64,000 bases of DNA from Betaproteobacteria bacterium (lineage in GTDB: Bacteria; Pseudomonadota; Gammaproteobacteria; Burkholderiales; Usitatibacteraceae), in NCBI GenBank assembly GCA_016791265.1, contig JAEUMY010000024.1, positions 62,001-126,000 on the forward strand, read 5' to 3'. The notes below the pieces were generated by a model that was not told where the DNA came from, did no database searches, and saw only the letters and a list, made by a program, of their open reading frames with translations. Shown piece by piece: positions 57,146-62,725 of this stretch (positions are counted from its first letter, which is position 1; each line of letters begins with the position of its first letter). Position numbers and translations under genes: made by a program.

Positions 57146-58042
57146 ATGGCGAATATTCGCAAAGTACTCTTTCCTCTGCTGCTGTCTCTCGCTCTGCCAG
57201 CCGCTGCCCAACTGGACTTCTCCAAAATTGAAGTCAAAACCACCAAGCTCAACGACACCACCTACATGCTGATCGGCGAGGGTGGCAATCTCGGCCTCTC
57301 GGTCGGCCCGGATGCCGTCTTCCTGATCGACGACCAGTACGCGCCGATGACCCCCAAGATCACCGCCGCAATCAAGGCCATCACCGACAAACCGGTCAAA
57401 TTCGTGGTCAATACCCACTGGCACGGTGACCACACCGGCGGCAACGAGAATTTCGGCAAGGCCGGCGCCATCATCGTGGCCCATGACAATGTGAGGAAGC
57501 GCATGAGCACGCAACAGGTGCTGGCCTTTTTCAACATGACGGTTCCGCCCTCCCCCAAGGAGGCGCTGCCCGTCATCACCTTTGGTCTGGACACGACTTT
57601 CCACCTCAATGGCGACGAGATCAATGTCTTTCATGTTCCCAACGCCCACACCGATGGCGACGCCATCGTGCATTTCCGCAAGGGCAATATCATTCACATG
57701 GGTGACCTCTACTTCAACGGCCTGTATCCCTTCATCGACTCGGCCAGCGGCGGCAAGATCGACGGCGTGATCGCGGCGGCGGACCGCGCCCTGGCGCTGG
57801 CCAATGATCAAACCAAGATCATCCCTGGCCACGGCCCGCTGTCCACCAAGGCGGAACTGAAGGCCTATCGCGACATGCTGGCCACGGTGGCCGGCCGGGT
57901 GAAGGCGCAGATCGCCGCCGGCAAGAAGTTGGAAGAGATCATCGCCGCCAAACCCACCGCCGACTACGACCCCCAATGGGGCGGCGGCTTCATCAAACCC
58001 GACAAGTGGACGGAGCTGGTGGCGCGCAACCTGCTTCCTTGA
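57146..58042 (+). CDS. Metallo-beta-lactamase-fold hydrolase, exported
   Basis: 298 residues from ATG 57146; AGGAG lies eight bases upstream. Signal peptide (KVLFPLLLSLALPAAAQ). The zinc motif is NTHWHGDHTGG; VPNAHTDGD, MGDLYFNG and IPGHGPLS supply further ligands, as in periplasmic MBL-fold proteins of the QueF-unrelated, lactamase B-like class. It might act on phosphoesters or lactones; the link with phnDE is position only. Codons 2-5 (ANIR) are a HIP-like palindrome. Confidence 0.88.
   Translation: MANIRKVLFPLLLSLALPAAAQLDFSKIEVKTTKLNDTTYMLIGEGGNLGLSVGPDAVFLIDDQYAPMTPKITAAIKAITDKPVKFVVNTHWHGDHTGGNENFGKAGAIIVAHDNVRKRMSTQQVLAFFNMTVPPSPKEALPVITFGLDTTFHLNGDEINVFHVPNAHTDGDAIVHFRKGNIIHMGDLYFNGLYPFIDSASGGKIDGVIAAADRALALANDQTKIIPGHGPLSTKAELKAYRDMLATVAGRVKAQIAAGKKLEEIIAAKPTADYDPQWGGGFIKPDKWTELVARNLLP
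57149..57160. repeat. HIP-like palindrome at codons 2-5 of the MBL gene (ANIR frame)
   Basis: Core exact and directly after ATG: the protein begins Met-Ala-Asn-Ile-Arg. It lies within the ribosome-binding footprint. Confidence 0.95.
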
Positions 58043-59909: not shown

Positions 59910-60956
59910 CTACCTCGCCAGAAACGCCCGCACCGCCGGATACTGGGTCGCCGTGGAACACGCGGGCAGGCCGTGGTCGCACTCGGGAATATGCAAGACC
60001 TCCGCGTTCGCCAGCTTCGCGAACTCACGCGCGGGCTGCGGCGTGACGATGTTGTCCAGACCTCCCGTCACCACCAGCATCCGCCCCCGCACCCGCTTCG
60101 CCGCGGCGGCGAGGTCGCCCGCGTCATCACGCGCGACATCGAGGTCGATCATCGCCTTCAGTTGCAGATTGCTGTTGAACGCCTGATCGCGATTGAGCTT
60201 CTGGTTGGCGATGTTGGCGCGCACCTGATCGAGTTTCTCGCGCGGCGCGTTCCGGGCCTGCCACTCTGGGCCGCGCAACAGAAAGCGCAGACCCGCCAGC
60301 ACCTCCAGCGGCCGCTGACATTGGCAGTCGAGATATTCCTGATGCAGCTTGACCTGCGTTTCCCACAGCACGATGTCGTACGGCGCCAGACGCGGTGAGG
60401 CGGCAATGGCGACGTAGCGTCCCGCGAGTTCCGGATACGCCACCGCCGCGGCGAAGGTCTGCATGCCGCCCATCGAAATCCCGGCCATGGCGTGCAGTCG
60501 CGTGATGCCGAATTCCTTCTCAAGCAACCGGCGATAGGCGGCGACCATGTCCAGCAATGCGGGCTGCGGAAACTGCGCCGCCGGTTGCTTCCGGCTATTC
60601 GACGGCGAAGACGACACCCCATTGCCGAAGCTGTCCGCCAACACGATGAAAAATCGATTCGAGTCGAACAGCTTGTCCGGCCCGACATAGCGCAGCAAGT
60701 CCGCGCTGCGTCCACCCAGCCACGTCGGAACGAGAATGGCGTTGGTCTTGTCGGCATTCAGCGTGCCCACGGTGAGGTAGCCCACCCGGCAGTCTTCAAT
60801 GACCTGGCCGCTCGCCAGCGGACAGGTCACGAGATCGGCGATACGCGGCTCGTTGGCTCGTGCGACGAGTGCAACGAAGGCGAACGACAATAGTGCGAAT
60901 ATTCGCAACAGCGTTCCCACCAGCGTTCCCACCAGCGTTCCCACCAGCGCTCCCAT
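59910..60956 (-). CDS. Exported alpha/beta hydrolase, homoserine O-acetyltransferase-like
   Basis: 348 residues from ATG 60956. MetX-like fold: NAILVPTWLGGRSAD, nucleophile Ser in AMAGISMGGMQTF, Asp in GGLDNIVTP and His in PECDHGLPAC. The signal peptide at its front (ending VARANE) makes it a periplasmic relative rather than a true MetX. The signal core is built from a 12-bp tandem repeat (LVGT LVGT LVGT) followed by LRIFAL encoded by a HIP-like palindrome. Five bases after the 2OG oxygenase stop, so one operon. Confidence 0.85.
   Translation of the reverse strand: MGALVGTLVGTLVGTLLRIFALLSFAFVALVARANEPRIADLVTCPLASGQVIEDCRVGYLTVGTLNADKTNAILVPTWLGGRSADLLRYVGPDKLFDSNRFFIVLADSFGNGVSSSPSNSRKQPAAQFPQPALLDMVAAYRRLLEKEFGITRLHAMAGISMGGMQTFAAAVAYPELAGRYVAIAASPRLAPYDIVLWETQVKLHQEYLDCQCQRPLEVLAGLRFLLRGPEWQARNAPREKLDQVRANIANQKLNRDQAFNSNLQLKAMIDLDVARDDAGDLAAAAKRVRGRMLVVTGGLDNIVTPQPAREFAKLANAEVLHIPECDHGLPACSTATQYPAVRAFLAR
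60895..60906. repeat. HIP-like palindrome in signal peptide (RIFA frame)
   Basis: Full 14-mer at 60894-60907; adjoins the tandem repeat. Codes Leu-Arg-Ile-Phe-Ala-Leu. Confidence 0.95.
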
Positions 60957-60957
60957 C
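60908..60957. repeat. 12-bp tandem repeat in a signal peptide
   Basis: About four units of CAGCGTTCCCAC, the last diverged (CAGCGCTCCCAT). On the minus strand they code repeated Leu-Val-Gly-Thr/Ala, so copy-number change would lengthen the hydrophobic core by four residues per unit in frame. Confidence 0.9.
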
Positions 60958-60961
60958 AGCT

Positions 60962-61900
60962 TCAAAGCAGCTTGATCTCGCGCAGTCGCTCCTGCAAATA
61001 GTCCCACGCCGTGATCGGCTGCGGATAGCGGCTGGGATTGTCCGGCGTCACGCAGCTCGGCAGCACGTCGATCAGAAAATCCGGATTGGGATGGAGGAAA
61101 AACGGCACGGAATAGCGCGGCTTCCGCGCGTTCTCGTTGTTAGGGTTCACCACGCGATGCGTCGTCGATGGATACACGTGATTGGTGAGCCGTTGCAGCA
61201 TGTCGCCGATGTTCACCACGATCACATCACCCTGGGTGGTGATGGGCAGCCACTCGCCGTCGCGACGCAGAAGCTGCAAGCCTTCCGCGCTGGCGCCCAC
61301 GAGCAACGTGATGAGATTGATGTCTTCATGGGCGCCAGCGCGCACGTTGGGCACATCGCCGTTCAGGATCGGCGGATAGTGGATCGGCCGCAAGATGGAG
61401 CTGCCAAAGTCGGTCTTGTCCACAAAGTAGTCGGCCGGCAGATTGATATGCAGCGCCAGCGCGGAGAGCACGCGAGAGCCCAGGTCGTCCAACGCCTGGT
61501 ACAACGCGTAGCCGTGCTCGTGAAACGCCGGCACTTCCGCGGGCCAAAGATTCTCCGGCGTTTGCGGCGCATAACGCGAATCACGTGGAATCTCCCGCCC
61601 GATATGCCAGAACTCCTTCAGGTCAGGGTGCTTCGAGTCCTTGGCCGTCTCGACCTTGAACGGCGTGTAGCCGCGCGCGCCGCCCGTGCCCGGCAGGTGG
61701 TACTTCATCTTGACCTCGGTGGGCAGCGCGAAGAACTTCTCGAACGCGGCATAGGCACGGCTGATCAGCGCTGGATCAATGCCGTGCCCGCTGATGCCGG
61801 CGAAGCCGAATTCGCGATAGGCGGCACCGAGGTCGGCGACAAACTGGTCGCGGTCAGTGTCGAAGCGGCGGATATCGAGAGTGGGGACGTGGGCGGTCAT
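60962..61900 (-). CDS. 2-oxoglutarate/Fe(II) oxygenase, isopenicillin-N-synthase-like
   Basis: 312 residues. Double-stranded beta-helix: HEDINLITLL supplies His-x-Asp, TTHRVVNP the distal His, and KPRYSVPFF the Arg-x-Ser for 2-oxoglutarate. The N-terminal region FGFAGISGHGID is the DIOX_N domain. It hydroxylates or desaturates a small molecule. Operon with the downstream exported hydrolase (five-base gap). Confidence 0.92.
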   Translation of the reverse strand: MTAHVPTLDIRRFDTDRDQFVADLGAAYREFGFAGISGHGIDPALISRAYAAFEKFFALPTEVKMKYHLPGTGGARGYTPFKVETAKDSKHPDLKEFWHIGREIPRDSRYAPQTPENLWPAEVPAFHEHGYALYQALDDLGSRVLSALALHINLPADYFVDKTDFGSSILRPIHYPPILNGDVPNVRAGAHEDINLITLLVGASAEGLQLLRRDGEWLPITTQGDVIVVNIGDMLQRLTNHVYPSTTHRVVNPNNENARKPRYSVPFFLHPNPDFLIDVLPSCVTPDNPSRYPQPITAWDYLQERLREIKLL

Positions 61901-62026
61901 GTTCAGTCTCCAGGCGCGGGGTCGCGCGGCGAGTCATTGCGAAGTTCGAAAGCATACGGCAAGTGGCACACCGGGAGATGATCCCGATCAAGGCCCGAGC
62001 GAGCGGGCGTGGCCGGTGGGTTCACC

Positions 62027-62038
62027 GCGAATATTCGC
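62027..62038. repeat. HIP-like palindrome beside a terminator
   Basis: Core within CCGCGAATATTCGCGG (62025-62040), 13 bases beyond the T run of the terminator at 62057-62080. Same layout as 48237-48248. Confidence 0.95.
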
Positions 62039-62056
62039 GGATGGTCCCAGGCGAAA

Positions 62057-62080
62057 AAAAGCCGCCCTGAGGCGGCTTTT
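62057..62080 (-). terminator. Terminator of the small basic protein gene
   Basis: AAAAGCCGCC-TCAG-GGCGGCTTTT on the minus strand with a T7 tail continuing into CGC. Confidence 0.9.
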
Positions 62081-62098
62081 CTGGCGGCGGAAAACCAA

Positions 62099-62227
62099 TC
62101 AGATCTTCTTGATCGTTTCCAGCATCTTGAACACGCGCTTCGGCGAGCCGATGAAAAGGCGCTTGAAGCTCTTGCCAAGACAGCGGCGCTCAAGGGTGTT
62201 GCGGCGGGTGCGGGACCGTTCGGCCAT
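62099..62227 (-). CDS. Small basic protein (42 residues), unknown function
   Basis: 42 residues from ATG 62227, with GGAG seven bases upstream and a strong terminator 19 bases downstream. The sequence opens MAERSRTRRNTLERRC and ends KRVFKMLETIKKI; about a third of residues are Arg or Lys, with one Cys. Such a charged micro-protein with its own transcription signals could bind RNA or the ribosome; that is inference. Too short for usual gene finders. Confidence 0.7.
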   Translation of the reverse strand: MAERSRTRRNTLERRCLGKSFKRLFIGSPKRVFKMLETIKKI

Positions 62228-62305
62228 GGTGATTCTCCAATGAGTGGGTGGGGTTCAAATTCGGGAGCGCGGATTATAGCTTAGGAACCCATTGATTTGA
62301 TTGAT

Positions 62306-62725
62306 CTAGACGGCGCCCTTCCGCACCTTCGCCTGCACCCGCTCATCAAACTTCGCGACATTGACCACCACACGCTCATGCGTGCCGGCGCCGATGATGT
62401 CCTGCTCGTCACGCGCGACGACCTCGAAGCGGATGTTGCGCCCTTCCACCGCCGTCACCTTGACCGTCGCGGTGACTTGCATGCCGACCGGCGTGGCCGC
62501 GACATGGCTCACGTCGAGATGCGTGCCAAGGCTTTGGTGACCCGCGGGCAGCAGATGCTCGACCGCCGCCAGCGCGGCCGCCTCGATGACATTGATCATC
62601 ACCGGCGTGGCGAGCACACCGACGCGTCCACTGCCGACGCGGGACGCCGTGTGCTCCTCGCCCACGACGAGCTTCGATTCGCCGGTCTGACTCAGCGGAA
62701 TGTCCAACACGAGCGGCACAGTCAC
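62306..62725 (-). CDS. Hotdog-fold thioesterase (FlK-like)
   Basis: 139 residues. ASRVGSGRVGVLATPVMINVIEAAALAAVEHLLP and GTHLDVSHVAATPVGMQVTAT are the pattern of the fluoroacetyl-CoA thioesterase-like family; the Thr/Glu pair (ATP...IEAAA) and His in DVSHVA mark the active site. It hydrolyses a short acyl-CoA. Start overlaps the stop of the MORN gene by ATGA. Confidence 0.87.
   Translation of the reverse strand: MTVPLVLDIPLSQTGESKLVVGEEHTASRVGSGRVGVLATPVMINVIEAAALAAVEHLLPAGHQSLGTHLDVSHVAATPVGMQVTATVKVTAVEGRNIRFEVVARDEQDIIGAGTHERVVVNVAKFDERVQAKVRKGAV

Follow-up and report, generated by a model that had tools for sequence, protein, structure and literature searches.

In the 64,000-nucleotide stretch of a betaproteobacterial genome analysed here (family Usitatibacteraceae; hereafter the window), a 12-nt unit is repeated in tandem over the beginning of a hydrolase gene with a signal peptide. 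The question that arises is whether a change in the number of units could tune export of the enzyme, or whether the repeat belongs to the translation start and leaves the export signal as it is. A preliminary description of the window had proposed the former, with about four in-frame units inside the signal peptide, each of them extending the hydrophobic core. The repeat itself is confirmed, as Tandem Repeats Finder (TRF) reported it at 60909-60960 with period 12, 4.3 copies, 95% matches and a score of 90, the top score among the 45 TRF rows of the window, tied only with its own period-24 form and followed by a runner-up at 71. On the coding strand it reads CTG-ATG-GGA-GCG, then three times CTG-GTG-GGA-ACG and a last CTG, after which the gene continues with TTG CGA ATA TTC GCA. 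Three units are identical and the outermost one differs from them at 2 of 12 bases. The array begins one codon ahead of ATG 60956 and keeps the frame of the minus-strand ORF 61007..59910, its unit being a multiple of three and free of stops in the coding frame. Exact matches at period 12 run on for 29 nt (a perfect repeat of 41 nt, 60909-60949). In 200 windows simulated with an order-1 Markov model, the longest run never exceeded 15 for any period from 4 to 30, or 13 for period 12, and 29 nt was reached in 0/200, so the array is not a product of chance. The features discussed below are collected in the table.

Table. Coordinates in the window of the tandem array, the candidate start codons and the neighbouring features.
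Feature	Coordinates	Strand	Basis
12-nt tandem array, about 4.3 copies	60909..60960	-	TRF, repeat finder, sequence
Alpha/beta-hydrolase gene (Abhydrolase_1; MetX/E22-like)	59910..60956	-	profile matches, solved relatives, alignment
2OG-Fe(II) dioxygenase gene	60962..61900	-	profile match
Self-sufficient signal peptide LRIFALLSFAFVALVARA, core IFALLSFAFVALVA, cleavage motif ARA before NEP	60855..60908	-	sequence; hydropathy; A-x-A rule
First in-frame ATG, 348-aa form; no Shine-Dalgarno-like match; 5 nt after upstream stop	60954..60956	-	
In-frame GTG, GGGAG 5 nt upstream; sole Shine-Dalgarno core among the five candidates	60942..60944	-	
In-frame GTG, array unit 3, GGGAA upstream	60930..60932	-	
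In-frame GTG, array unit 4, GGGAA upstream	60918..60920	-	
In-frame TTG just past the array; gives M-R-I-F..., 18-residue signal peptide	60906..60908	-	
Palindrome GCGAATATTCGC, 2 nt from the array; its CGA-ATA-TTC encodes signal-peptide residues R-I-F	60895..60906	.	

The array stands alone in the genome. A 24-mer search allowing up to three mismatches found no second copy in the 3.94-Mb genome, since all three hits are the array 60909-60960 itself. In a sample of 587,576 bases, made up of the window and 27 other stretches, only 10 arrays had a match run of at least 18 nt (period 6-40). Two of them, poly-G runs at a contig start, were left out of the ORF-context check, which covered the other eight. 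In this check, the sole other array lying soon after an ORF start was found 51 nt into its ORF (L094 10228-10265); its GCCAAGAAGCCGGCC units encode a lysine-rich repeat and no signal peptide. At the RNA level, predicted structure at 60870-60990 was barely better than that of shuffled sequences (z -0.68; 50/200 at least as stable), and no Rfam family matched within 60500-62400.

The longest ATG form of the protein begins MGALVGTLVGTLVGTLLRIFALLSFAFVALVARANEP... and matches PF00561 (Abhydrolase_1) at 50.4 bits, above the cut-off. NCBIfam models match as well, below their cut-offs; NF005757 gave 177.5 bits under its 332-bit cut-off and for this reason we name the protein only MetX/E22-like. Among solved structures, homoserine O-acetyltransferases rank best and the esterase E22 comes lower in the list. 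Ser161, Asp301 and His328 are invariant in an alignment of five sequences, from which we infer that they form the catalytic Ser-Asp-His. The 5-nt gap between the dioxygenase stop codon and ATG 60956 suggests an operon, both genes likely being carried on one transcript. Relatives are few: at E<=1e-40 the hydrolase has a match in 2/28 family genomes and 1/399 order genomes, and at E<=1e-35 in 2/398 genomes of the phylum sample and 2/369 of the class sample, its own genome being counted every time. The nearest relative shares 47% identity (L083) and another 41% (L001), and in plasmid records all relatives fall under 60% identity and none reaches 80% query coverage. The dioxygenase found its own genome alone among the 28 family genomes at E<=1e-60, and tblastn against loci L001-L083 returned only L081, the window's own locus; conservation of the gene pair and synteny are therefore uninformative. 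The dioxygenase thus has no match at this threshold in the 27 other family genomes, and the hydrolase comes close to it in rarity; the genus is represented by one genome. The pair may be an acquisition from beyond the family.

The order of elements along the N-terminus bears directly on the question of export. Numbered from ATG 60956, the hydrophobic core comprises residues 19-32, and Arg18, whose codon directly follows the array, is the only charge ahead of it. The ARA that comes after the core is a plausible cleavage site, which we take to be that of signal peptidase I under the A-x-A rule. The residues encoded by the array (GALV/GTLV) are uncharged and only moderately hydrophobic, with a mean Kyte-Doolittle value of 1.73 for the GTLV segment against 2.79 for residues 19-32. 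The array units are located before the n/h boundary of the signal peptide. Because Arg18, the core and ARA all come after the array, the latter lengthens the leader ahead of the core and not the core itself. In this sense, the earlier picture holds in that 4.3 copies stand at the head of a hydrolase bearing a signal peptide, and fails in that the units lie ahead of the hydrophobic core and do not extend it.

Five in-frame NTG codons are candidates for the translation start and occur at 12-nt spacing, four in the array and the fifth, a TTG, directly after it. Starting at ATG 60956, GTG 60944, GTG 60932, GTG 60920 or TTG 60908, the signal peptide would measure 34, 30, 26, 22 or 18 residues and its first positive residue would be number 18, 14, 10, 6 or 2, respectively. 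In five exported relatives, the first Lys/Arg is found at residue 4 (L083), 4 (L001), 2 (L002), 3 (L112) and, depending on the start chosen, 2 or 4 (L003); L113 matches the start region of L001 letter for letter over a shared 100-nt stretch and was not counted as a separate relative. The N-termini of these relatives resemble the form that starts at TTG 60908, MRIFALLSFAFVALVARA, which is by its sequence an ordinary signal peptide. Among 71 signal-peptide-like ORFs of the 587,576-base sample, the first Lys/Arg had appeared by residue 6 in 47 and came at residue 18 or later in 11, a late class into which the crude filter may let membrane proteins and wrong starts. Shine-Dalgarno pairing at GTG 60944 was estimated at -6.5 kcal/mol (the 10th percentile of random positions is -5.9). 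We give little weight to this criterion here, because Shine-Dalgarno cores were present at 7/36 single-start ORFs of the sample versus 7% of random positions. On balance the observations lean towards a translation start inside or after the array. The preliminary description had held that an invariant repeat number together with a start downstream of the repeat would speak against its proposal; TTG 60908 offers the second of these, a downstream start with a complete signal peptide and N-termini alike in relatives, as a candidate.

The array is probably a recent product of slippage that amplified the start region, is near-neutral and multiplies alternative starts. Replication slippage would have multiplied 12 nt around the translation start of the exported alpha/beta-hydrolase, and the present four copies could have grown in this way from a pair of similar start segments. 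The identity of the three innermost copies, compared with two changed bases in the outermost, suggests that the expansion is recent. A unit comprises four codons, one of them an NTG start codon, and its purine-rich GGGA[A/G] tract falls about 5 nt ahead of the NTG that follows. Every further copy thus adds to the candidate starts (ATG, three GTG, TTG) that precede the invariant signal peptide (M/L)RIFALLSFAFVALVARA. Export would be carried by this downstream, self-sufficient signal peptide. With each unit gained or lost, four residues and one potential start would be gained or lost before the n-region arginine, with the core keeping its length. Since the core and the cleavage site lie downstream and stay as they are, copy number should have no influence on export by way of core length. 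The effects left over would concern initiation, through more starts and a greater separation from the stop codon upstream, and the length of the n-region; we expect copy number to be neutral or to change translation initiation mildly. Near-neutrality is the most likely state of the array, and we assume it here. Several points count against this explanation. ATG 60956, 5 nt after a stop codon, is well placed for coupled initiation, and the whole array would then be translated. Also, TTG is a weak start codon, the GGGAA ahead of it makes a poor Shine-Dalgarno site, and the hydrolase has few relatives, the nearest at 47% identity.

If translation did start at ATG 60956, the array would fall within a 34-residue signal peptide, and slippage could alter its hydrophobic length and so tune export. 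The position of this codon just past the dioxygenase stop agrees with such a role, as does an array that is in frame and fully uncharged. We nevertheless regard it as unlikely, since the units precede the core, the ATG has no Shine-Dalgarno match, and the five relatives, with their first Lys/Arg at residue 2-4, do not resemble a protein with 17 uncharged N-terminal residues ahead of an Arg and the core. Conversely, the array could be an untranslated spacer, a neutral intergenic minisatellite with TTG 60908 as the sole start, which would give M-R-I-F and a charge where the relatives carry theirs; a period divisible by three, the lack of an in-frame stop and the ATG/GTG codons upstream in the same frame make this quite unlikely. 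We find it very doubtful that the unit is a module of ribosome-binding site and start codon whose copy number sets the initiation rate and the N-terminal length. Five in-frame NTG codons at exact 12-nt spacing, the last four each after GGGA[G/A]CGCTG, and the pairing energy of GGGAG at GTG 60944 would suit such a tandem array of start sites, but the spacing is automatic for an in-frame 12-nt repeat containing a GTG codon, and in three of the four modules the purine tract is GGGAA, which contains no Shine-Dalgarno core. That the array is, beyond this, prone to slippage and built of complete modules, each unit adding a start and staggering the N-terminus by four residues, is highly unlikely; if true, copy number would set the initiation rate or the length of the n-region while the export core stays fixed.

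In-frame coding minisatellites and short tandem duplications arise by replication slippage. The array shares with them a short unit, a period that is a multiple of three, near-identical copies and the absence of a frameshift, and differs in sitting exactly over a start codon and signal-peptide leader and in being known here from one genome. An insertion/deletion polymorphism has been reported in the signal peptide of human APOB and is likewise an in-frame change of length (PMC5737435; PMC4365815). Unlike the array, which precedes the core and is known here from one genome, it is a eukaryotic population polymorphism. The APOB polymorphism reportedly repeats part of the hydrophobic core of the signal peptide. 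In bifidobacteria, slippage has been proposed to drive the ON/OFF switch of a pilus and so, as we propose for the array, to alter a bacterial gene (PMC9187656). There expression is turned ON or OFF, whereas the 12-nt unit changes length in frame only. In the titles and abstract openings examined on repeats, duplications and length change in signal peptides, no bacterial tandem repeat varying a signal peptide appears. The array is a genuine in-frame repeat of unusual appearance, placed over the start codon and leader, with a small chance of being a functional tandem start-site array. If its copy number varied, it would represent a frame-preserving route by which slippage adjusts how the gene of a secreted enzyme begins. 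As matters stand it serves mainly as a caution that the functional signal may begin only after a repeat which annotation places within the signal peptide, and that calls of gene starts in such arrays are ambiguous.

The palindrome adjoining the array, which the preliminary description had rightly called iterated, is more remarkable than the array and merits study of its own. The 12-mer GCGAATATTCGC is present in 1624 copies in the 3.94-Mb genome, where its reversed control has 0, and in 23 copies in the window, where 0 are expected (others lie, e.g., at 62027-62038 and 57149-57160). Each of 27 family members holds 0-4 copies, and each of 398 other genomes of the order 0-9. In the 587,576-base sample, 254 of the 302 AATATT sites fall within the exact 12-mer, and of only 37 one-mismatch forms, 21 carry the mismatch at the outermost position. 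Coding ORFs contain 178/254 of the copies, a slight under-representation (70% vs 81% ORF coverage). These counts suggest a highly iterated palindrome specific to this lineage and similar in kind to HIP1, for which a link with a methyltransferase has been proposed. As HIP1 does in cyanobacteria, it combines a short perfect palindrome with genome-wide dispersal (PMC4390886). It differs from HIP1 in its sequence (GCGAATATTCGC, 12 nt), and it adjoins the array and takes no part in the array mechanism. A link between arrays and palindrome was considered and not retained: 1/10 sampled arrays lies within 2 nt of a copy and 2/10 within 50 nt, where 0.028 and 0.068 are expected per array, and no link emerged from these counts.

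Other repeats of the sample deserve a brief record. At L086 11567-11614, about 7 copies of the 7-nt unit GGCGGGA form a tandem array that overlaps two opposed GC3-supported ORFs and lies 38 nt from a copy of the palindrome. The beginnings of contigs C9, C10 and C16 (L096 1-209, L097 28-60 and L103 119-210) carry poly-G and GGGGCTG/GCCCCCA-type repeats, which probably arose as artefacts of assembly or sequencing where the contigs break off.
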